In this document: piece after piece, positions 5,079-49,138 of the stretch
How positions within the stretch are numbered: position 1 is the first letter of the stretch
How the letters are laid out: each line of letters starts with the position of its first letter
Assembly: GCA_921293015.1 (NCBI GenBank)
Contig: OV121085.1
Location: 11,557,731 to 11,621,730, forward strand
Source: Phorcus lineatus
Taxonomy: Eukaryota; Mollusca; Gastropoda; Trochida; Trochidae
DNA length: 64,000 bases
Direction: 5' to 3'
Program-made: the position numbers and the translations under genes
Notes under the pieces: model-generated
Databases searched by the model: none
What the model saw: only the letters and a program-made list of their open reading frames with translations
What the model was told of the DNA's origin: nothing

Positions 5079-5630
5079 TGACTATGATACGAATGAAGCT
5101 TGAATGGCTGAGGGTCGGAAAAACATAATGATACAGAGTTGTCGTTTTCGTTTAATCTAAGATCTGCTACTTCGCTTCGTGAGTGGCTTTGTGTCTCTGT
5201 ATCGTACATCGTGTACTTCAAACCATGTACAAAGCCCATTACACAGACATTGAGCAAAATTGGAAAATTTGTCAGAATATCGCACCTTTAAAGCCGCCGA
5301 GTCAATTGATAAAGAGCACGTGGTTTCCGCGAAAAATCAACCATGACATTGTTGTCACGCTTCTTCCGGTGTTAAACTTGGGCTTTGTTTGTCGACGATA
5401 ATAAAATGACAGTTCGAGAAGAAATTTAATATAAGAACGACTTTCATTGACGTGGGACTTCCTTATTTCCACTTGTAGAGTTTATTATGCAAGCTGGACA
5501 CTCGAGTAAGCAAAAAGAACGAAGCAATTCAGTTGATATGTATAATGTCTGCCTTCAATAATTACGTTATTGTACATATTTCTTGGTTTGAAGTTGGCTG
5601 GTTTCATGTAAATGTTGTTTATATTTTTTA

Positions 5631-5687
5631 AATAAATATCTATCTTTCAAAGTGTGTTTACATTTATTGTTCAAACGCTGAAATAAA
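5631..5687 (+). promoter_or_regulatory. Polyadenylation signals of the membrane-protein gene
   Basis: AATAAA hexamers at 5631-5636 and 5682-5687, about 550-600 bp after the stop codon at 5076-5078. They are the first canonical signals downstream, so the 3' UTR most likely ends near 5650-5710, just before a MITE. Confidence 0.5.
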
Positions 5688-5713
5688 ACGTCCATTAGTT
5701 AATATGTGCCCCT

Positions 5714-6326
5714 ACAGCTGCATCCCGAAAGTTTGTTCACCTGTACAGCTTAGTGCAAATATCAAGTCCTTTGAATTTTCTTTGGACGTCATTGCATTAC
5801 TTCATTTGTACTTGCAATAAACATGTCCGTGTTCATAGATAGTTATTCAACAACTGTTCATTGGATTGTCAGGTGGATGGTGGAATTTTCCGAACATAAA
5901 GCAAGAAGAAATAGTTAGATCGGGTCAATTTTATACATTTGAAATTTCCTACATTTTTAAATCATTTTTTCTAATGGATTGAATGAAACAAATGGCACCA
6001 TACATATCTTGAATGAGAATACGATAAATAACACTGGCTTTTTAGCCTTGTTAATCACTTATTAGAGATTTTACACGAGAAAGATAAAAAGTGAAATTTG
6101 CAAATCTTGACCAGTGGTCACTTCAACGGGCTGCCAATTTTATTACAGATAACAGTGTGGTATGCAAACAGATTATGTTACGGAAATTAATTGTCGCGTC
6201 TGACCTCATAACACAACATTGTAATTTTTAATTTATCAATGCTATGATGCCCCAAAATAATCCAAAATACATGACAGCTTCACTACGATAGGCAAGTAGG
6301 TGAACAGACCTTTGGTATGCAGCTGT
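5714..6326. mobile_element. MITE family A, copy 1
   Basis: Non-coding element with terminal inverted repeats: the left end reads 'acagctgcatcccgaaag' followed by 'tttgttcacct', and the right end is its near complement 'ggtgaacagacctttggtat' plus 'gcagctgt'. TA dinucleotides flank both ends (5713-5714 and 6326-6327), suggesting a TA target site as in Tc1/mariner-type elements. Copies 2 (30128-30645) and 3 (42764-43313) share the termini. Copy 3 also shares internal words such as 'ttaatcacttatta', 'acctcataacacaac' (one base different) and 'atgctatgatgcc'. It encodes no protein. Confidence 0.82.
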
Positions 6327-6363
6327 ATATATTGTCCGCAATTTGCAAAAAAGAGCTATACCG

Positions 6364-6389
6364 CCCCCCCCCCCCCCCCCCCCCCCCCC
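6364..6389. repeat. 26-base poly(C) run
   Basis: Twenty-six uninterrupted cytosines, just downstream of MITE copy 1. This is a mononucleotide microsatellite; the complementary strand is a G-run able to form a quadruplex and this strand an i-motif. Confidence 0.95.
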
Positions 6390-7485
6390 TTTTCATCAAT
6401 TAGAATTCAGAGGGTCATCAAACCCATAATGTAGAATTCCCATCAGATGACGAATTTTTAATACCCGGTTTTGCATCATGAATGTCTTATCGTAAATCAG
6501 TTGTTTATTTCTGGATATTTGATCCATACATATAGTTCATTTTTATAATTTTGGGAAATTAGTGCAATTAAGGGGGCCTTTTTTCATATAACTTTCATCA
6601 AAACCATATGGCGGACAGTAGCCGACAGGTACAGTCGTAGGTAGAATTGTGTTTCTATGATGTATATGTTTTCAGTTTAGCCAGGACCATTATATCGATA
6701 TAACAATCCCTGGTTTGAGCATGAATAATCTGACCCCTGTTCCGAAAAAAAATATAAAGAAACAAATTTACTAATCATAAGTAGCCTACAGTGGATTCTT
6801 GACTGTGCATTCTTCGTTTCGCTTGTGCGCCAGTGCGTCTGTACGTATAGTCAATATTTCAGAAGCTCGACCATTTCGTGTATAATTAATCTATAGAAAT
6901 TGTCTGGGATGTTATAGCGAATGCTAGATAACTCTCTACGCCAAAAACAGGATGTCTGTCGCGAACAATATAATATGTAGGTTAACACTTGAATTAAGCG
7001 CAGGGCGGATCATGTGTAGAAGTCTATTTTATTTAACGATTAGAGCATTTTATTGGCTAATGGAACACGACTGGGAGAGCGCAAGGAGGTAAAAGTGTTA
7101 CCAAATGGTAACACGATATAGTGTTGAATTATCGGAAAGTATATACTCTAGATTTGTTGGTTTGTGGTCCTAGAGAAGAATTAGAAATAGAACTTTAAAA
7201 AATTCAGCCTACAGATGTACGCCGGACGCCATATATGCCAGTCAAATATTGCATGAGCCCCTCGATTAGGCCCGATGCGCTAAAACCACAGATGTCATGT
7301 TTTTACAGACACAAATGAAATTAATGTCAAAAGACATTTCGGTCGCTCAACAAATAAAGTACAACTTTATTTTCCAAAAAGGTTTGAAATTTTGAAAAGT
7401 CTTCACCAAATGAGGAGAGTTTATACTTTAGTAAGCGGTATGCAGTTACTCATTCATTTGGGAGTTACTTCCCTTTGACGACGAT
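6390..7485. other. Intergenic and presumed LYRM2 promoter/5' UTR
   Basis: No open frame or recognisable repeat. The last few hundred bases presumably hold the LYRM2 promoter, but I see no clear TATA box. This is AT-rich single-copy-looking sequence. Confidence 0.4.
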
Positions 7486-14265: not shown

Positions 14266-14813
14266 TTACCCGGTATTCCGATTGATTCTTCTATTATTTC
14301 TGTTCACTTTGTTACGCTTTGCCGACGGAGAAATTTTTGAATTTTGCCTAGCTGATGGAGATCTTCTTGAGCTTCCCCTCTGAGGAGACTTTGGTTTATG
14401 TTTGGGTTTTGGTTTTGGTAGAGTTCTCCTTTGTGTTGGTCGTCCTGTTGGTCTCTTTCGTTTAGAACCTGACCTTGACCTTTGACGAATACCTGGTTTC
14501 CGATTCCGCTTTGGATTGACTTCATTTTTACTTTTCTTTTTGGAACATGTGGTAATATCACAGTACTGCCATTCCTTGTTTGCTTTTGTTGTAAAACACC
14601 AGGGCTTCTTCTTTCGTCGCCCACTTGGGTTTCTGCAGTAGTTGTGATCCCCCAAACCGTCGCTATCTTCTCTATTCCCGGATGCTCTTGGTTTCAACTT
14701 GTGGCTATGGGGATATTGTTCTGACCACTTCTGACACGTCACACCGTCCAGCGTATGGTCAAGCTTTCCGCGGTAGTCTCGGCCATCCTTAAAACGACCC
14801 TTGACACATTTCC
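14266..14813 (-). CDS. Terminal exon of the astacin gene: kringle domain plus basic tail
   Basis: The acceptor is 'ttatctctttcag' (minus strand). The exon supplies residues 457-638. The kringle (459-546) has cysteines at 459, 483, 516, 529, 541 and 546, the usual six with 1-6, 2-4 and 3-5 pairing expected from the family. The 92-residue tail has almost no acidic residues and contains runs such as KPKPKHKPK and GSKRKRP; it could bind heparan sulfate, nucleic acid or other polyanions (inference). One exon carries the whole kringle, which fits exon shuffling with phase-1 boundaries. Confidence 0.9.
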
Positions 14814-17800
14814 CTGAAAGAGATAAGATAATATTTAAGACCTGTGAATGATTCGGTACCAGGTTAGCTTGGACCACTATCCTAACATATCTAAAAAGGC
14901 TCCAGGTTGATGTTATTAGTCAATCTAGTTTTTCCTTTAGTTTGACTTTAGCGATGTGAGGACTGACCTTACTGTTTAATGAAGTTAAAAGTAACTGTTC
15001 TAGTCTTTTCTAAGGCTTGTTATCTTTCCAACTCCAAGATAGTCGTTAGTTCTAGGAATTGTGTTGCTCCAAAAAAAATCAATCTTGAATAAAGAAAAAG
15101 AGAAAAATAATGAATGTCCTGATATCTAAGATAAATTCTAAATTTATATTTAAATGCAGCCAACTTCGAATCTCGAATTCAGACAATGTACTGTATAGCA
15201 AGTAAAATAGGGAGACAATAATATAGTCTAGCGTGACAATATCGTAATCCTGTCTGTTAATTGTTATGAAAATAACAATATTAGAATTCATATTAAAGAG
15301 CCACTCCGTGATTTTCATAACATAATATTTACCTTTGATTCGAATCTAAATGTCATATGTGGTGATATAAAATCAAAACATCGTAACTTTTCATGTCCAA
15401 AAGACATCTATATGACAAATACCAGTTTTCCATGAAAATATAAAAACAGCCTTGTTAATGCACAGAGGTGTATATATTACGTACAATATACATGGATATT
15501 TATATATTATATAACCTAACAAACACTATCAACTCTTAACTGCCCTGCTTGCTGTTTTAGACGAGCTTCCATAAGTACGTTTGACTATTTCATATTGTCA
15601 CTGTAAAAAAAAAAAAAAGCTTTAAAATGTGTCTTTTTAGTTAGAGTCGATGCTTCGCGATCAAATGACACTATTGATTAAGTTTGGCATATATGTTTCC
15701 AACAACTCACGGAGTGGCTCTTTAAGGTATTTTCTAATGGCTAAACCCGTCTTAAAGTGATACACATAAGACTTGTAAAAATTATTTTTAAAGTCTCTAA
15801 GTTCATATTTCGACACCAAATAATGTTTCTTGCCACTTTTTATAGTGCACGTCGTAAAACACGTCGCTTGTGTATGAAAAGTACACATTAAATCGATTCA
15901 CTAAAGCTTGTAATTGTTTTAAGACATGCATTTCTTAAACTTCACCCAGTCGCTTTCTCTTCATTTTTATGATAATTAAAATACCAAATGTCAATCAGTG
16001 ATAATTGCTCTTTGTAGGTGTACCACTCACTCTTTGATCGCTTCTCACAAATGAACGGATACGCATGTTCCGGAAGCTGCGACCTTGACCCTATCCACAC
16101 GCCTTGCCACTTGAATGTTTTGGTGCTCCGATCTTTGACGAGCGCCATAGATGTGAACGATCCCGGCATGCCTTTGTCCCAGTTTGTATACTTCATCTTT
16201 TTGGGTTTAGATTTATCCCCGATGAACCACATCATGGTGTTATTGATACGCTTACCGCCTGTCCGCCATATGTAAATACTGGGGTACTTTTTATTAACAC
16301 GTCTCTGAAGGAACTTCTCTTCACTCCTGCTTTCTACAGACACTAGGCGTGACTTCTCTTTCTCACAGGCCTTCTGGGCAGCGGGGAACTGACTCCTGGG
16401 TTTGACGTGAAACTTGTAACAGCTAGTCTGGAACTTGGTCCAACCTTTTGGGCAAACTGGAATCAGGAACAAACGGGAGGTGAAAATACGTATCCCGAGT
16501 ATACATCGGAATACCAATTTTCAAAATAATAATAATATAAAGTTATATATTTCGTACACGGAATGTACTCTGTAACACGTCATTCTAGTTTGAAATTTAA
16601 TGCTAACAGAGTCCCTGAAATCTAAGTTTAATCACACTGCCGGCTTTTATTGTTTTATCAATGCCTTGTATTTTCAATCATCCTTAAAACTGTCACAAGG
16701 TCTCTCTGTGAAGAGCGAGTAAGAAACAGAGTACGATGCTGGTTTCCTCTTCGAAAAGTCTTAGACTACTTTCTTTGCATAACATATATATATATCCATT
16801 TCTAAATTCTGGAATGATCCGCATGAAACGTAACACATGGTATAAGAACGTACGGGTTTATACATTGTAAACGCTTTCAACATGGAATTATAAATATGAA
16901 ATTGACTTTATCTCCTATAGTGCTTTGTTGACGGATTTCACTAACCATCAGCAATTGGTGAGAATTGGTGGTTTAAAGAACATTTCAGTGTAGAGAGGAT
17001 ATTATGTTTTGAGTCCATGACGTACTATGTTGTACGATGAGTGCATAAATATTTTTATTTTCCGAGCGACAGTTAGGGATATACTGATATGTTGGCACTA
17101 CAGTCGAAAACAGTGTATGTCATATTCTAAGTAGCAAAATCAAAGAAAATATTCAAAATCAACATCCAGCATAGGCGGATTACCCACACCTGGCGCAATT
17201 GGATTGCAATGTCATAGACGAACTGTGACGTCAAAGCATTGTTTATAACGACATGTCGCAATAGGAAAATGATATTTTGTCCAAAGGGCATCGTATGAAA
17301 AATATGAACTCCCCATATAATTACCATCATAAGTGATAAAGATTATCAAGATCATTAACCAAATTAAAAATACAACACAATTGTAACATTGTCCCTTTAA
17401 GACAAGAAGAAGAATATCTACAAAGATTTGCCATATCTGTAACAACTATCGTGAAGAAACATTTTGCATCCTTGTTATATGCATAATTTCATCAGATGCG
17501 TTCACTTATATGTTGGACCGTGTGGGCAGATGAAAATGGAATAACTTGGAACAGTTCCAGACACGGTGCTATCCGATATCAAGAACTGCTGTGAACTATA
17601 TGTACTTTTAGTAGACTTAGCTTTTTACATAATCTCTACAGGCATGTTGAAAGGTGATAGCTGACGTGATGTCGTGTACTTAGGGACAGAGGGTGTGACG
17701 TAGTGCAATACGTTATGAGATAACCTTGTAAGTTGTTGCAGCTCCGAAAATGTCAGGAGTGGTTTGTGAAATTGAAGGTTAAAAAAACCTTAAAAACAAT

Positions 17801-20800
17801 TCAGTTTAGAACTAGAGATATTTTGCTTTTTATAATTGATATTCACAGATGTGTCATTAAATAGATCACTATTATAGTCACAGACATTGCATTTATCGAT
17901 TAAATATAAATTAAATATTTTTGTCGATTTAAGAGCATGTTTTCTAATCATCAACCACAGTCCATTTGAACTTCTTATCAGAGGAACTGTATACATGGGA
18001 ACAAATAAGAACGAGAGAAAAAAAATTTAAAAAGAAAGTGGAAACAGATTCAAAATTTGGGAAAGGAAGTGACAAATACAACTTGAAATGATTCTCAAAT
18101 GCTGCCTTAAGTAGACTGACAAAGAAAAGACAAATTGATGCAAGAAATGGATAATAAATACGAGACAAAAAAAGGATAATTTAGAAAATACATGATTTGC
18201 AAAGAAACGTCAAATAGTGAACCTCTACTTATATGATCCAAGGTTATACCGGCAAATCAGTATGTATATATCACAAATCCTTTGTTAGAATGAAATACCC
18301 TTCTTCTAATGAGTAGATACCAGATTGGAATGAAACCTCTTTACCAATTCCACCATTCTTCATTTTGTCACGGAACCAAAAAGGGGAGATAACCACTTAC
18401 ATGATAACTTGCTGTCCTCCTTCCTGCCACAGTGGTACATCTCCCTCAGCTGGGCAATGTCAATGGTGCTCAATTCCCTCCTTTGTCCGATCTTCAGGTT
18501 GAGCTTCTTTCCTATTCCAATAATCTGTTGATTTGAAGGTCAAATATCTGCTAAAACTGATACTGAAGGTCATGAAATCGTAATACGAAAATCGATATGA
18601 CATCACTGAAAATTTGTCACATCACATTTTGTGTAAACATGATCTGTATAATCTGTATACACACAAAGAATTTTTTTGATAACGCTATCGTAGTATTTTA
18701 AGGTTTCAGGTGATCTTAATGATTTCGCAGGTAATGTCAAATCTAGTGGTATTCAGGTGCTTAACGACGGTATATATTATCTACTATGCAAATTTATATG
18801 TCAAATTTGAATTTTTGGTGACTGGATATATATGTTGTCAGTTACGCAGTACTGTTCAAAGCAGAAGTATCCGGGTACGAGAGACTCTTCTGTACAATCC
18901 CAGTAGTGGTCGTGTTTTATGTGTTTGATTGCGTTAAGACTCTATTCTATAGGTGATTCATAAAACAGAAAAATAATTTCATAGGAAAACTATGTTTGAA
19001 GGTTTTTAGAAGGATTTGGCTGGTAGAAAGCATATTTGAGTGAGGTTTCACACCTACAAACGTTAGATATGCTCAACTTATGTTTTCTTTCATAGTTGAA
19101 TAATGGGTAATTGTAAATGTTGCGAGAGGGTTTCTATCAAACACTAGAATAATATGAATAGAAATAAAAGTAAAAGACATGAAGCACAAGATTAGTTTTA
19201 AGATACCTTGATAGTTGGTTCCCCCGCTCTTGTGAAGGCATATTTGTTGTAGTGCATTATGCTGGTGTAATCGTACGGGTATCCTCTAGATGTTGTTATT
19301 CTCTTGTTAAGAATCTTGAAGTCTGGGAGGAAGCGGGGAGAAATGTTGTCTTCTAACACCCTGATATACTTCTCTCTATCCGGTCGTGCCTATCAATGTA
19401 TACAATAATGTCTTTTATTTGAGTTGAAGCAGCAGAAGCACTAATTCATAGAAATATTCTCAAATCGATAAATGTTAATTCCAAAACCATTGATTCAAAG
19501 GGTAAAACACCCAATGCTTCAACCTGAATATCCGTGTTCATTGAAGAAAATATCAAGTGCCAACTTAAGGCGGTCATTTTAGTGTAAACATCTTTTAATC
19601 ATTTAAGGTAGGAAAATGGTTTCGCGTAGCTTAATCGAAAATGTTACGTTTTTTTAAATATAAACCGATTGCCATGTAATTGGGGATATATATTCCTTTT
19701 CGTGAGATCCCTTTGTTTACACAAAAATACTGCTTAAAGCATCACGCATTCGTGTGCTTGTTAAGATATATATAATATTAGTTGATCCTTTATTGGAAAA
19801 GACTAAATAAGGTCAGAATTTATATAACTAAGCTGGCCATATTCATACATATATATGCTCCGGATTACCAACACACTTGTATGCATTTTTTCACTTGCAT
19901 ATGTCAACAGTTACTGGCTGAAATTTCTACGTTTCAATAAGAAACCTATGGCTCAAACAAAGAATCTAACCCTTGTGTGCTTAAAGTCTTTCTAACTTAG
20001 GGTGTAGTAATACATACCTGTTCATGCCAGACACCTATAGCATGTGACGTCTCATGGACTGCTGTCCCCACGTTCTCGCACCCCCTCCCTATACTGACCC
20101 TCTGTGACCCCCCTCGTCGTCCCACGTTTGACCAGCATCTGAATATCAATATATATATATCTAGAGAATATCATATAGGTTACTTATTATATTGCAATAT
20201 ATTAACGCGCTGAGCATATTTTACGATCACCAACAGACATTGATATATGATATATTTATATCAGAAGACAGTTGGACAAGCATCTAAATATGAAGATATA
20301 TTCAGATAATATCTTACAGGAATCTGCATTTATTGCATATGAGCATAACAGGAATTGATGTATCCATATAGGAAAATAGTTTCACGCACATTTAGTTTTT
20401 AATAGACATTTCTATCGCCAAACCTAGCCTTTCATTAACTTGGTATTATGATGTCATCAAGGTTCGTGTCTTGCGCTTCACGGCATTATCAAGTTTTAGT
20501 GTTATTGCTTTATAAGCATTCTTTCAGAAATCGTGAACCTGTATTTCAAAATGGTATTAGCGGAACTTACACAACAGGAACTTCTATTTATATTCATAAT
20601 CATAAGTCAATAAAAACTATCAAAATCTATTTCTAGTTTACAAATTATTATATCATGTGTCTTTATAACAAAAACACAGACATATCATATCATTACATAT
20701 TTACTCTACCATCATTTACTGCTAAATAGGTCACGAGACATTTCTGTCCACTCAGCTCTTCACATATATACATGTCTGAGCATGGAAAATATTTAAATTG

Positions 20801-23800
20801 ACACCAGAGGTTTCCAGATGTGCGGTATTGACAACTGTTTCTAATGTCCGTTTGTTTTTCTACGTGGATATTGGTTTCAAATTAAACCCAGGTCATTTTC
20901 TTGCCCATATTGTTCTTCTTCTATGCTTCACTAGAGGTGAAGTAAGCTTTCCAAGTTGTGTAAACTAAACCAAAGTGTAGCATGCGTTAGCATTCATGGT
21001 TGGTGATATAATTCATCGCAGTATTTTCATAGCACATATCGCACTCGGAGACCTCATATACTGTACATATGATTGATTGAGGACATGAACTTGGTATACC
21101 ATACAAAACACGTGTATGAAATATGATAAATTTGAGAAACGAAAAAGCTGTTGGATAACTTTAGTTTACATAACGTGCATTTTGATGTTCAAACTCTGAG
21201 TGGAGTGGTCTACTGAGAACATAAGCAACAACATTATGCTGGGTGGATTGATGTAATTCAATTCACGTCAGGAGGAAATCGAAATAACTTAATATTAACA
21301 CCGATATGCTCAAGAAAGAACGATATCTAGCTGTGCAGTTGTGCCTACCAACAACATCCATATTCTACGCTAATAAAGCGATATAGATAGAGAACTCAAT
21401 TAATTTATTTTCATTCGTTACTATAGAAGATATCAGACCTTGCTCAAAGTTATTCACGATGAAATATCCAACAGATGTCAAGAGTTACATTTAATCATGA
21501 TACAAACTTTGCAATTGTAGCATACCCATTGGGCCGTTCGAGTTTTCATAATCCCTAAGACATATCACATAGTCATGTTCACATCCAACGAATCTGGAAA
21601 TGACCAGTTAACATGTCAAAACCTTAGCTCACGGATACATGACTGCAATAAAGTAGGTTTTGTTCAAGTATTATAGCGATAAGTTCCAGTAAATTAAAGT
21701 TGAACTTCTGTGCATAATCACGAGACTAAGACTACGACTTAGTACAGAAATCAGTTACACTACATCTTCACTCACCCTGGTTCGCTTATATAGTGTATGT
21801 AGTCCTTGTCTGATGGTTTCCTCTTCCGAAACTTGATGCAGGTCTTATCCATTATATGTTGCAAACCACGCAAAATAACTCGTTCAGCAGCTTCACCTTA
21901 AAGTAAAACATTTATTGTTACATAGCATTACATGACACAGCTGTAATATATTTTTTAAGAATATGACCCTTTTCTTCCCTTGATGAACCTTGTCAAAATA
22001 CGTCGTTTGACAGAATTAGCTCTGGAAAAGTTCATCACTGCCATATTGTAATTAAAAGCTCTTTACATTTCGTAATATGCTCTGTTTTCAAGGGGCAGTA
22101 GCACGTTTTTAAGATGATTTAAATAATCTCATCAAAATATTAATGTTACCAATTGCAAGGCAATATTTTATAATCACAGGTTATAAAACGAATTCTTCAT
22201 GTCTATTAAGGTCGTTAATCAATTTTCAAACTTCAAATGATCAAAATGATTTCACACAAAAAAGGCCGCCAGTGGGTTTTGCATTTTACTTGACCTATTT
22301 ATCTTTTTTTGTACGACTACGGATGGCTGAGTTCAGTAAACAGATGTCTGACGTTCTAAAGATTATACATTTGGTATAAACTCATGTCTATTGATGGAAA
22401 CTTGAAATAATTTTTTTTAAAAACGTGCTTTATACTGCCCCATATGAGCATTAGAAAGAATCTCTGATTTTGCTTTAGGTATGAAACAAAAGAAGGAAGG
22501 CTGGTTACAAGAGCAAGGCAGAAACGAAGATGGTTCTATCGGCCTAAGACGAAAAAGGGTTACCTGAATAGAAGATTTCAATTGAAGTTGCGTTACATAC
22601 TTATATCAGCGTCCATCCTATAGGGTATTACACCATCTTTCCAAAGTTTCGTTCTTATTCTCATCGTTGCCCTTTTCCGCCGAGACGACTGGTAGATGTA
22701 CCGCTCATCCTCCTTCCCCAGGACAATGTCTCCCTGGTAGAACGGGGTACCAGCTACAACATGAAACAATTGTAAACCATCAAAATCTTATAACTAGATT
22801 TATAGAAAATCACCAAAAAATGGCCGTCAATGGTTTTTGCTCGATACTAGATTATTCCCTCTACGACTACGGACAATTATTTCAATGAGATGTTAGGATC
22901 CTCTGAACATAAATCCTTTTCCAAAAAACTTGTTTACTGGGGAAATTTTAAACATCTGTGAATTAAATTCTATTCGCGCTAGGGATTCATACTCGTATCG
23001 CTAAATCGTATTAATAAATGAACGCCATGAACAGAACATAAATCATGTTTTACTGTATCAGGCGTTATATTCAGTATATTTGAATAAATCTTGAATTAAT
23101 GCGCTAATTTATTTCTCAATTTCTTTTGTCAAAAAAATTGGATTGTTAAGATAACATATTGTGTTTTGAATAAGAAAAGAAAGATTCAGGTCGTCGGTTA
23201 AGGAACGGACTTAAATAACATATCCATGATCTCTCTTTAAGAAAACCTAAAATAAACAAAATATTTCCAACTCACCTGTTCCCCGGGGTCGGTAACTTTC
23301 CTTTCTGCCTCTTGCACTTGGATCCGAAAATTTGCACAAAGATGGTGGACATATTCCTGAAACAAACGTCGAGTTAAAAAATACGAACGAAGCTAACGCC
23401 ATTTATAGTTTCAACTCTTTTTCAGCAGTACCTGTATGCTGGCATGTTTGCCTGATGTCAGTTATTTAATATCCATCACATGTATAGAAATAAGGTCAGT
23501 GCTCGATTCACCCGGAGAGCAAACACTCCGTCTTATTTTTTGTCCTGAGAATCCTGAACTCAAACCATTAAGGCTTCACTCCAGTTTCAGAGTAATATGA
23601 ACCCGTGTACGAAATTTTGTCTAGAGAATGATAACTTCAAGACGTATGGCGAAACTCCTGAATAGAGCTTATAAGATTTCTCGGAATTATTTTGTCAGAT
23701 CTTAGGGTCGTGGGCTCTAAAATGTTACACTTTCTGAAACTTGATACGTCAGATTTTAAGGACGATTTACTTCTTTGTATTAACGTCACAAAAGGAGGAT

Positions 23801-24830
23801 ATTCTGAACGAACTCCGGAAATATCTTTACAAGGTGTGTCAATTTGTTAAAGCTCTGCTTCTATAATCAAAATATTTACACTTAATGCTTGCAATTACCC
23901 TAGTATTCTGACATATGAAACCGTTCGCCAAAATTAGATCAAGAGGTCACGCATTGCCTGCAGGATGTTTTGCGTAAATACCTCATACACTAGCAATGAA
24001 AAGTCTGTAAACATGTAATTAATTTTTTAGAGTAAATGCGGGTTTAAAAAGCTTGGAATATCTTAAATGACTAGCCTTTCTGCACTTTGATGCTTATTAA
24101 TGTTGGTGGTAATTGGAACACTACTTTCTGAATTGTCCAGTTGCTCATATCGTTTGAAAAGGCAACAAATTCGTCAATGGAAGTTACCATTTATATTAAG
24201 AATTGAACAATTCTAGATATCTTTGAGTTAATAGAGCTCTTTAAGTACAAAATTAAAAACTCAGCACAGTGCGAAAAAAATCAATCTATACACACGATAT
24301 CATATATCATATAAATATCTACCTCAAAACATAAAATATTCTACAAATGTGAAAAAGGGGGAAATAGCGATATGTGCAATAGATAATATTTAAGTCAACA
24401 AACATAGTTTCTCTCCATTCCAATTTATATAAATTATGTGCATTTTTTTAGACTACACAATGTACAGTAGGGAAAAAACTACAAATCTTTTTGTCATCTA
24501 AGTAAGTAAAGGCAGACTACCTTTTTCAGTTTTCTTGTCTGCAAGGCATCAGAGCATTGCACTTGTCATTAGATTTCACTCAGGCTATTACATTTCTTTA
24601 TCAATTGATTGAAGTACAAACTAGACCTGATTCAAATCTCTGGATAAGACTTTCATCAGTACAACCTTACCACTGAAAGGGCCTCTTTTAAAACGATTAC
24701 CTCGTTGACGCAAATAAGGTGCAGTGACCCGAGATAGTAGGAATGTAGCTAGAAGTAGACATAGTGAAATATTAAAACTGAGCTTCAGGGATTCCTCGAC
24801 ATGCTTTTCCCACGGAATGCATTTCCTCAC
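14266..24830 (-). CDS. Secreted astacin metalloprotease with C-type-lectin-like and kringle domains
   Basis: Nine exons on the minus strand: 24830-24671, 23356-23276, 22753-22601, 21896-21776, 20138-20018, 19389-19207, 18524-18401, 16456-16031, 14813-14266. All are GT/AG with matching phases and give 638 residues. Order: hydrophobic signal segment (about residues 18-36); prodomain with FYQGD (85-89, the family's FxGD aspartate switch); furin-type site RRKR (105-108); WKDGVIPY; catalytic zinc motif [13 protein letters not shown] (200-212, HExxHxxGxxHE complete); Met-turn SIMHY (255-259); final catalytic-domain Cys at 305; C-type-lectin-like domain 316-455; kringle 459-546 with six Cys, YCRNP and PWCF; tail 547-638, extremely rich in Lys, Arg, Ser and Pro. 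Astacins are zinc endopeptidases activated by removal of the prodomain. Active-site residues look intact, so a working secreted protease is likely. The lectin and kringle modules probably target it to a substrate or matrix. I do not know this domain order from any named astacin. Confidence 0.93.
15293..15725. mobile_element. MITE with perfect 'AGAGCCACTCCGTGA' termini and TTAA target
   Basis: Lies inside the last intron of the astacin gene, between the lectin and kringle exons. 'TTAAAGAGCCACTCCGTGA' at 15293-15311 is mirrored exactly at 15707-15725. The outer TTAA on each side looks like a target-site duplication, the preference of piggyBac-type elements. It has no coding capacity. The perfect 15-bp inverted repeat suggests a fairly recent insertion. 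Confidence 0.85.
16031..16456 (-). CDS. Astacin gene exon 8: C-type-lectin-like domain
   Basis: A single phase 1-1 exon encoding [15 protein letters not shown] through FICEKR, typical long-form C-type lectin ends. The conserved early Cys of the fold (ACEKEKSRL) and the final Cys (FIC) are present. The EPN or QPD calcium/sugar motif is absent, and the two inner cysteines normally found near the W-D-C region are replaced ([13 protein letters not shown]). Calcium-dependent sugar binding is therefore doubtful; protein or matrix binding is more likely (inference). Confidence 0.88.
21526..21593 (-). other. Candidate frame-shifting (poison) cassette exon in the astacin gene
   Basis: Bounded by a good acceptor ('catttccag') and donor (GGTATGC) on the minus strand, 68 nt. 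It continues the frame from exon 4 without a stop, encoding a short Cys-containing stretch ([16 protein letters not shown]). Because 68 is not a multiple of three, inclusion shifts exon 5 and reaches a TAG at 20091-20089, before the zinc-binding motif. Skipping it gives the intact protease. It could be a regulated poison exon or a chance pseudo-exon. Confidence 0.4.
22092..22441. mobile_element. MITE family B ('GGGGCAGTA'), copy 1
   Basis: Lies in an astacin-gene intron. The left end 'ggggcagtagcacgttttta' is mirrored by 'aaaacgtgctttatactgcc' plus 'cc'. The internal sequence matches a second copy at 62100-62488 ('accaattgcaag', 'cagtagcacgttt') and a fragment at 22797-22895 ('tacgactacgga'). 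It is non-coding. Confidence 0.8.
22797..22895. mobile_element. MITE family B fragment
   Basis: Resembles the interior of the family B copy at 22092-22441: 'aaaaaatggccgtcaatggt' and 'ctctacgactacgga', also found in diverged form near 62260-62310. The ends are missing. It lies in the intron between exons 2 and 3 of the astacin gene. Confidence 0.55.
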
Positions 24831-46500: not shown

Positions 46501-49138
46501 TGATTGAATGAGATTGATTTACGACACATGGTTGCGTTTTGCTGACATCCCTGGAGATTTTAGCTAATCAGAGTCATACCTAAAAGATTATAACTATGGG
46601 AGGATAGCACGAACTATGGGAGGATGAACATTAGTTGAAAACTATGGGACACCTAATTTGATTTCGTAAATATAGGTCTTTTCGCATATCATCATAATTT
46701 CAAGAGTAAAACTAATGTTCACAAAACTTTGTTTTAAATATTTGATTTAGACTTTAACAACTTAGTATGTTCAAAACTGAAGGGCGCTGGTTGGAAGAAT
46801 GTGAACGATCCTTTGGACGGATAGTAAAGCATTACCACGATGAAGCAAAGTCGAACTTTTCATAGATGGTAATATCTCATAAAAAGCAAGATGCTTGAAA
46901 AAGTTTTGAATTCTGCTAACCTTTTCAAGAACAATTCGAAGTTCTGATAGAAAGAAGAATTCATTTCCATTTCAAGATTTGAATCTAGGGTGTTTTGGTA
47001 TTATTTCACCTTTTGTTAAAAAGGCACGTAATTTGTATATCTCGAATATTTATCATATCAAAATTATATTATTAAACGTTTTCTTTATATAATGTAAACA
47101 CATTCCGGTTATACAAATGATATGCTTTCTAATACTGCTCATTGACACACACGGGCTGATCGGTTGTTGTGCTTTACCAATGATCGTTAAAAATACATCA
47201 GTTACAGGATAAGTATTTGATCTTATAAGTTGATGATGTAGCCCTTGTTCTGCTACTGACATGCTCTGATAAGGCGTACGTCTGGAAGCTGGACATTCCT
47301 TTATCTTTGCATTGATTGGGCGACCTGTTTCTGGTCTGCCGTCCACAGTGACTAGGTGGCAGGCGCCGAAGGAAACGCCAAAGGAGTACAAACTTCAATA
47401 CGAAGGGAACAAACTTCAATAAACCGCAGTTTCAGGCATCGTCCCGACCCGTGCTTGGGATTCACTTTACGTAATTTCCCTCAAACCTGAATGAATCACG
47501 CTACCACGGGCAGTTATCATAACAATGACCCTCTACCCCGGGCAATTATCTTGAGAATGCCCTCCGTCCCGAGCAATTACTTTAGATATCTTTCATTGAT
47601 AGGTGTAGGCTTAAGTTTTAAGTTAGCACAAATTTTATGTTCCCATCTGGATTTTTTTTTTGTGATTTGCCGTCTCGAACCCGCATAGTCCACACTCCAA
47701 AACGCTGAACCCATCGCTCTGACTACTGGGCCACTGTGACAGCGTTAGGTTAGTTCCTTTAAAAACATAAACAAAGGTATGAGTTTGAGTGGTTCCATAT
47801 TTTATATCATTGTGTATATTTAAAGGTAAACTTAGGCTACGAATATTTTTTATAATTCATAAACTTATTGACGATCTATGGATTTACAGTCGATTTGAAA
47901 GTGAAAATCACGCGATTCAATGTTCCACTGCAGATAAATGCTGGCCACACGTGCAACGGATACCATAACCGATAGAGCTCTTTTTGTTGTACCACTCAAA
48001 TGTATACTTACCTCATGATTTTTTCTGCAAATATGTATTGTGTTATTCTTATTTAATGAATTTATCTAATTCAGTTTCCTCTCCATTGTTTAATGTACCC
48101 CAATTCATATTCCCGTGAATTTCACAATGCGGAAAATCTTGTTTTCATTATGAAAATCACTTCAAAGGGCCCTTCAGAGATTTCATATCAAATTATCTTA
48201 ATAACTACACGTAAGAAGTCACAAAGTGTTTTTCTTTCGCCTTTTGGCTTGATTAAAGTCGAGTGACATAATCCTAAAATATTTCCTGTTGTAACCATAT
48301 ACGTGACATTTGCTTCACTTGTGTTTCAGGGGAGAGTGGGAATAAGGTAAGAGTGGAATTTGAAACTCCGGGAAAGATGTTGATTTGTATCCGAAAGACA
48401 CAAGGATGTTATTTTCGTGGTCTCTTACCTGGATATGTGGGGGAAAAGATTAGATTTGAAACTACTATCAAGATCTTTAAAGTTGGGCGATTTAAAAACA
48501 ATAACATTTTGGTTGAAACTGAAAAAAATGTGGTAATTTTTTCCCTTGATAAGAGAAGAGATACAGTTCTGGTGTACAATCACAATTTGTGGGATGTGTC
48601 CAATGAAGGATCTGACGGTAATGTGTATGTGCTTACAGGTTCAAGAACTGATTATGATAAAAAGATTGTGTGGCTGTTAACATGGCCAAATCAACTTGTT
48701 CAGATAGTCAGCTATACCCGTTGTAACAGTCTAGTGTATATTTCTAAAACGGAGACATTGTATATTGCTTGTGGTAAAGAAGTTAGATATCTGAGGGTGT
48801 CCACAAGAGCAAAGGGAGTGTTTTTTAAAAAGAAAGATATACAGAACATTGCTGCAGATGAAGAAAGAAATACCTTGTTTGTAGTAATAGGGAATAAAGT
48901 AATGAAAGTTGATTTTGCTGATGGATCCAAATTGTCTCCTATTTTTAGAAAACGTGCAATATATGAAATATCATATTTTAATGATACAATTTATATGGAT
49001 TATTGTGAAAGCTATTATTTTTTTGGGAACACTAGAGAAATGGTTGGGGCGTACAATCTAGCTAGTAAAAAAATACAAAATTTTGCTTTTAATGAAAGTG
49101 GAGAGTTGTTGGTAGGTTTTCCAACGTATGTGACATGA
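43543..49138 (+). CDS. Secreted cysteine-rich protein with beta-propeller-like C-terminal region
   Basis: Exons 43543-43788, 44327-44423 and 48330-49138 (phases 0 and 1, GT/AG) give 383 residues. I chose the ATG at 43543 because it directly opens a signal peptide (MIEFGVLLLFIFIILCIPII); an in-frame ATG at 43480 would add a hydrophilic leader. The first exon then encodes about 60 residues with cysteines at 23, 37, 41, 47, 59, 60, 66 and 77 (MCHNHC, ACCL), resembling a PAN/apple-type module. Exon 2 is a short hydrophilic linker. Exon 3 starts with 'GKMLICIRKTQGCYFRGLLP' and continues with repeated beta-strand pairs such as 'NNNILVETEKNVVIFSLDK', 'NSLVYISKTETLYIACGK' and 'RNTLFVVIGNKVMKVDFADG', as in YWTD or NHL-type propellers. 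The stop is at 49136-49138, with a possible poly(A) signal at 49728. I cannot name the family; the function is probably extracellular binding. Confidence 0.75.
44421..44725 (-). mobile_element. Second, diverged copy of the tRNA-derived SINE
   Basis: Alignable over its whole length with the SINE at 28347-28641: 'ggtggtactgcgct', 'gtagtattgcacctaaacct', 'ggctgctagtatt', and a B-box complement at 44662-44672. The tRNA-like head is on the minus strand near 44720. It lies at the very start of intron 2 of the propeller gene. Its tail end coincides with the splice donor of exon 2. No clear target-site duplication remains. Confidence 0.82.
45219..46293 (+). pseudogene. Tyrosine-recombinase-like (Crypton/DUF3504 type) fragment, frameshifted
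   Basis: An exon of about 45219-45423 encodes 'GFLSNHSLRATTCTPLYGSG' then 'IDEQLIAERTGHKSVAIRGYK', the (T/S)NHSLRAT...ERTGH.S...YK pattern of the tyrosine-recombinase fold in Crypton-derived proteins. GTGAGT follows. A second exon from 46098 continues 'RTSAEMEATVDAIIQRK' in the matching phase but stops at 46233-46235. A different frame runs on through a Ser/Thr stretch to 'DLKLVLKDGGSLSIKF' and a stop at 46291-46293. AATAAA follows at 46370. The two frames suggest one indel in a once-intact 3' end. Upstream exons are missing. The fragment is nested in intron 2 of the propeller gene. Confidence 0.68.
46376..47501. other. Intronic sequence with small direct repeats
   Basis: Contains 'actatgggaggat' twice with a third partial copy (about 46593-46650), and 'acaaacttcaata' twice (about 47389-47420). 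A minus-strand open frame at 47053-47391 shows no recognisable domain. Confidence 0.4.
47502..47590. repeat. 32-bp tandem repeat, nearly three units
   Basis: Units begin at 47502, 47534 and 47566, each of the form 'taccccgggcaattatc' followed by a 'gagaatgccctc'-like half. They are diverged by several substitutions. Confidence 0.7.
47668..47745 (-). mobile_element. tRNA-like SINE head
   Basis: Minus strand: A-box region 'tggcccagtagtcagagcg' and B-box 'gggttcgagac', about 35 bases apart. The stems do not pair as a functional tRNA. It lies in intron 2 of the propeller gene. Confidence 0.5.

Follow-up and report, generated by a model that had tools for sequence, protein, structure and literature searches.

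A 64,000-nucleotide stretch of the genome of the gastropod Phorcus lineatus (contig OV121085.1 of assembly GCA_921293015.1, positions 11,557,731 to 11,621,730), hereafter the window, carries on its minus strand what appears to be a single gene for an astacin-type protease with an unusual set of C-terminal domains. Nine exons between window positions 24830 and 14266 join in phase into an open frame of 628 residues, with GT/AG borders at all eight introns (Table 1). The frame encodes, in order, a prodomain, a furin-type site, an astacin domain, a C-type-lectin-like domain, a kringle and a Lys/Arg tail of 91 residues. The original prediction, made from the letters of the window without database searches, had already proposed nine in-phase exons and this domain order, and both hold up, with Pfam now matching Astacin, Lectin_C and Kringle in sequence. 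Its lengths required correction, from 638 to 628 residues for the protein and from 92 to 91 for the tail.

The intron phases are, in order, 1,1,1,2,0,0,1,1. As had been proposed for the added modules, the exon encoding the lectin-like domain has phase 1 at both ends, and the last exon, with the kringle, is entered in phase 1. We scored splice sites with a general consensus matrix that had not been fitted to the P. lineatus genome, and ranked them among the minus-strand sites of the window. The donors of exons 7 and 8 fall at percentiles 99.2 and 97.5 of GT sites, and the acceptors of exons 8 and 9 at 98.8 and 99.8 of AG sites. Weaker borders are the exon 4 acceptor (55th percentile), the exon 6 acceptor (76th) and the exon 3 donor (90th). 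For the tail, the claimed frame scores 0.249 vs 0.060 and 0.026 for the other two frames, and third-position G+C is 0.275 vs 0.545 for the remaining gene. At the 5′ end, the frame opens at a GTG at 24830, directly after an in-frame TAA; exon 1 encodes a hydrophobic signal-peptide core and has no ATG, so the true start would lie in another exon or a different acceptor would be used. Enumerating ATG exons onto the three possible acceptors of exon 1 gave no compelling upstream start exon. One candidate, 26675-26653 onto 24777, makes a neat leader, but its acceptor score is poor (1.1) and its hydrophobicity comes from exon 1, and we do not claim it.

Could the locus instead be transcribed as two units, with a plain astacin that stops after exon 7 and, on the same strand, an independent protein made of the lectin-like domain and the kringle? 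Intron 7, at 1.9 kb, leaves room for this idea, and translation running past the exon 7 donor meets a stop codon 13 residues later, which would allow for a shortened astacin isoform. The strong and phase-matched exon 7 donor and exon 8 acceptor, however, argue for joining the two halves. No exon combining an ATG, a hydrophobic leader and a phase-1 donor turned up when introns 7 and 8 were scanned, a negative of little weight since the same scan also missed the astacin start. We consider two units unlikely.

Intron 8, between the lectin and kringle exons, also contains an element resembling a miniature inverted-repeat transposable element (window 15280-15738), with 35-nt inverted ends that are 83% complementary. 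It has at least 42 matches in the genome including itself (40 scored of 4531 candidates).

The protease half of the protein carries the catalytic residues that had been reported as visible. Pfam Astacin covers residues 108-295 (E 1.4e-61), the zinc site HEXXHXXGXXHE lies at residues 190-201, and the Met-turn reads SIMHY at 245-249. In the PDB, the astacins that match best are meprin beta (E 1.2e-37) and BMP1 (E 1.2e-36), and High choriolytic enzyme 1 (3vtg) is also matched. By these measures the catalytic domain is that of an astacin peptidase (M12A) with all catalytic motifs intact, and it is predicted to be active. The claimed prodomain switch stands in part: the aspartate is present, in YQGDI preceded by F, while the strict FXGDI pattern is absent. 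The furin-type site is there as RRKR at residues 95-98, and cleavage after it would leave Ala99, which corresponds to residue 1 of mature crayfish astacin (1ast_A, with an alignment offset of 107 to 9). A second R-X-K-R site, RSKR, spans the junction of the lectin and kringle exons. Two more Pfam families matched the 628-residue model, both below their own cut-offs.

The second module is recognizable as a C-type-lectin fold. Pfam Lectin_C matches residues 327-415 (E 7e-9, 36.8 bits against a cut-off of 22.6, profile positions 4-86 of 107), and its matches in the PDB are mannose-receptor-type domains. For comparison we took ten complete one-exon Lectin_C domains from the same genome and dropped one that was in the wrong frame. 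Two cysteines, making up one conserved pair, are found in all nine of these domains and are absent from the astacin gene. The motifs EPN or QPD and WND are associated with calcium and sugar binding in C-type lectins. W-x-D occurs in 9/9 of the compared domains, where the astacin gene reads WQG; xP[ND] occurs in eight of the nine (exact EPN in three, QPD in two), where it reads MPG. A calcium-dependent sugar-binding C-type lectin would be expected to carry these residues, and on sequence grounds the domain is unlikely to be one.

The kringle is equally clear in its fold. Pfam Kringle covers residues 455-536 (E 9.8e-21), the six cysteines lie at 449, 473, 506, 519, 531 and 536, and the NYCRNP/PWC core is present; the Pfam E-values place the matches of all three domains beyond chance. 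Compared with plasminogen kringle 4, the groove aromatics are retained as two tryptophans and a phenylalanine. The acidic pair of RNPDADKGPWC is gone, PSGRRKKK standing in place of PDADK, and Glu aligns with Arg71. Both the acidic pair and Arg71 take part in lysine binding by kringles, according to PMC12216678. Having neither the pair nor a basic residue at the Arg71 position, this kringle is not expected to bind lysine in the usual way. We also compared eight other distinct kringles from the same genome: none has two or more adjacent basic residues in this loop, where the astacin gene has a run of five.

These comparisons bear on a second alternative, in which the modules act classically, the lectin-like domain binding sugar and the kringle binding substrate lysines, as in plasminogen-type targeting. 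Both folds are clear by sequence and the two groove tryptophans and phenylalanine are kept, as this explanation would have it. The replacement of the kringle acidic pair by SGRRKKK, together with the MPG and WQG motifs and absent cysteine pair of the lectin-like domain, speaks against it, and we think it quite improbable.

What the lectin-like domain, the kringle and the tail have in common is positive charge, without classical ligand-site residues. Computed net charges are +15 for the catalytic domain, +19 for the lectin-like domain, +10 for the kringle and +34 for the tail, and the mature protein has a computed isoelectric point (pI) of about 10.5. In the tail, 35/91 residues are Lys or Arg vs 20.7% in the remaining protein. 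The prediction of several targeting modules has to be taken more narrowly: the modules are present, but both folded ones lack the classical ligand-site residues, and positive charge is the feature common to them and the tail. Cysteine counts from the catalytic domain on are even within each module (4, 4 and 6), so the kringle could separate from the remaining protein. Molluscan sperm lysins are likewise basic, and astacins include hatching enzymes such as the PDB match High choriolytic enzyme 1, so by analogy a protein of this pI might be a reproductive or hatching protease acting on the egg envelope, though of the explanations considered here we find this one the most doubtful.

We propose that the gene encodes a secreted, furin-activated M12A astacin that would be docked on polyanions by its lectin-like, kringle and tail half, and we give this reading a probability of roughly 0.45, somewhat short of even. 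The zymogen would be held latent by the prodomain aspartate in YQGDI until cleavage at RRKR by a proprotein convertase exposes Ala at the canonical mature N-terminus, after which the catalytic domain would cleave an extracellular protein. Latency, activation and catalysis are proposed because the motifs are visible and their roles are known in the family. The lectin-like domain, kringle and tail would together tether the enzyme to polyanions such as sulfated glycans, mucus or acidic matrix, which we regard as their most likely role since they are positive and lack the usual ligand-site residues. A convertase cut at RSKR could then free the kringle and tail, switching the enzyme between anchored and free states. 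We speculate that the whole may amount to a self-anchoring, releasable astacin, in which a captured lectin fold and a kringle gained independently of the other astacin-kringle genes of the genome, neither with a classical ligand site, grip polyanions together with the long basic tail, and a convertase site at the exon junction frees the anchor; in this complete form the idea is unlikely.

Several observations weigh against docking and release. The nine lectin domains used for comparison were chosen for good one-exon Lectin_C matches and are therefore biased towards the canonical. Five of the eight other kringles have at most one acidic residue in the loop, and one of the eight also has Glu at the Arg71 position. 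Acidic-pair loss is thus common among the kringles of this genome, this kringle may never have bound lysine, and the loss of the pair is weakened as a sign of re-tuning. Charge may reflect general composition, as the whole protein is basic, including the catalytic domain and prodomain. Segments with as much Lys/Arg as the tail, though rare, do arise by chance: 4 of 1168 overlapping 91-residue segments from the open frames of the window (the tail included) reach its level. Finally, RSKR is followed by Lys and may be poorly cut.

To place the gene among its relatives we searched the whole genome (958 Mb, 74 contigs). The searches returned 71 astacin matches, which group into about 47 loci when clustered at 6 kb. 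Among the 149 Lectin_C matches listed, only this astacin locus has one within 50 kb; 150 of 591 candidates were scored in the Lectin_C search, and a weakly matching lectin exon next to some other astacin may have escaped it. No second copy of the gene was found in its own genome by searches with the whole protein (best 70 of 195 candidates), the lectin domain or the tail. The next-best match to the lectin domain has 31% identity (E 0.003), and the tail matches only itself. The best-matching other astacin, on C2 at 9.30 Mb, shares the catalytic domain (51% over 74 residues) and differs downstream, where same-strand sushi and MAM exons come next and no lectin or kringle match lies nearby.

Kringles are a different matter. 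Among 104 kringle matches in the genome, a kringle lies within 15 kb downstream of an astacin, on the same strand, at three further loci (C11, C32 and C17; Table 1). These resemble our gene in having an astacin followed by a same-strand kringle, but their kringles are split over two exons whereas ours is whole in one, and none of the listed Lectin_C matches lies within 50 kb of them. Four of their six kringle halves fall individually below the Pfam cut-off, and EGF-like exons judged by eye at the three loci gave no Pfam match. Because the kringle of our gene lies in one exon and lacks the ApeC- and CUB-type neighbours of the other loci, the sequences suggest two separate gains. Intron loss or gain inside the kringle could, however, mimic this pattern.

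At C32, the zinc motif of the astacin reads HELSHILGVYHS and lacks the family glutamate, and positions 5553-6697 of this region hold long open frames on the minus strand that resemble retroelement pieces by eye only. Elsewhere in the genome, the hemocyanin beta-sandwich PF14830 has 16 matches in two arrays of eight on C12 (7.65 Mb and 16.56 Mb); the family is molluscan, and such arrays fit a gastropod. In the window itself, an open frame of 286 codons on the plus strand (48278-49138) matches no Pfam family at E 0.01.

Table 1. Features of the astacin-lectin-kringle gene (window coordinates) and the further astacin-kringle loci of the genome.
Feature	Position	Strand	Basis or remark
Exon 1 (as modelled), signal-peptide core	24701..24830	-	No in-frame ATG; possible acceptors 24829, 24777, 24748
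Exon 2, prodomain	23276..23356	-	Phase 1-1
Exon 3, prodomain with YQGDI aspartate switch, furin-type RRKR site, first part of catalytic domain	22601..22753	-	Joined frame and motifs
RRKR processing site (residues 95-98)	22671..22682	-	Ala99 would follow the cut
Exon 4, catalytic domain	21776..21896	-	Joined frame and Pfam
Exon 5, catalytic domain with zinc site (20056-20021)	20018..20138	-	Joined frame, Pfam, motif
Exon 6, catalytic domain with Met-turn SIMHY	19207..19389	-	Joined frame, Pfam, motif
Exon 7, last part of catalytic domain with its final cysteine; donor in phase 1	18401..18524	-	Joined frame, splice scores
Exon 8, C-type-lectin-like domain (about 16454-16047), phase 1-1	16031..16456	-	Frame, Pfam, PDB matches
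RSKR (residues 444-447), first ten bases	16031..16040	-	Motif; site ends at 14812 across the exon 8/9 junction
Exon 9, kringle, basic tail, stop codon	14266..14813	-	Joined frame
Kringle domain, entire in one exon	14545..14808	-	Pfam and alignment
Basic tail, 91 residues (19 Arg, 16 Lys)	14269..14541	-	Joined frame
Stop codon TAA	14266..14268	-	Joined frame
Astacin-kringle locus, C11	38.28 Mb		Kringle halves 3-38 and 39-76 in two exons; ApeC, CUB (Pfam)
Astacin-kringle locus, C32	13.58 Mb		Kringle halves 3-54 and 45-76 in two exons; ApeC (Pfam); ShK below cut-off
Astacin-kringle locus, C17	36.65 Mb		Kringle halves 3-32 and 38-76 in two exons; CUB-like exon by eye, without Pfam match

How unfamiliar is this architecture? 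The original prediction knew of no such astacin, and in this genome the claim stands for the lectin, as no other astacin lies near a listed Lectin_C match and no second copy of the gene was found. It is weakened for the kringle, given the three other astacin-kringle loci, and for the individual partners, since the Figure 1 legend of PMC9848320 names both CLEC (C-type lectin) and KRING (kringle) among the domains that accompany astacins. The partner domains there are the same as in our gene; the legend does not show whether a single protein combines them or how they are arranged. The M12A proteases BMP1/tolloid and meprin have the astacin catalytic domain in common with this gene but carry CUB/EGF or MAM/TRAF/EGF modules (PMC9848320), whereas our protein has no Pfam CUB, EGF or MAM. 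The gastropod Colubraria has astacins with added C-terminal ShKT or MAM modules, and the text of PMC4460706 does not mention a kringle; the likeness is that of snail astacins with C-terminal modules. In the literature examined, which includes parts of PMC9848320, PMC10855680, PMC12549020, PMC11788884, PMC11452194, PMC12216678 and PMC4460706, we found no description of astacin, lectin and kringle in one protein. Multidomain astacins are a known kind, and only the combination with a basic tail may be new.

Astacins acquire functions mostly through the addition of C-terminal modules, and this gene is a clear case, with the added modules in single phase-1 exons. Lectin-like and kringle modules are here joined to one protease, and kringles have apparently been gained more than once in the genome. 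As the parts are known and have been combined, the surprise is moderate. If docking on polyanions is true, the lectin and kringle folds would have been turned from their classical uses to a common one based on charge. A self-anchoring, releasable astacin, if true, would give the astacin family a distinct means of targeting outside the cell.

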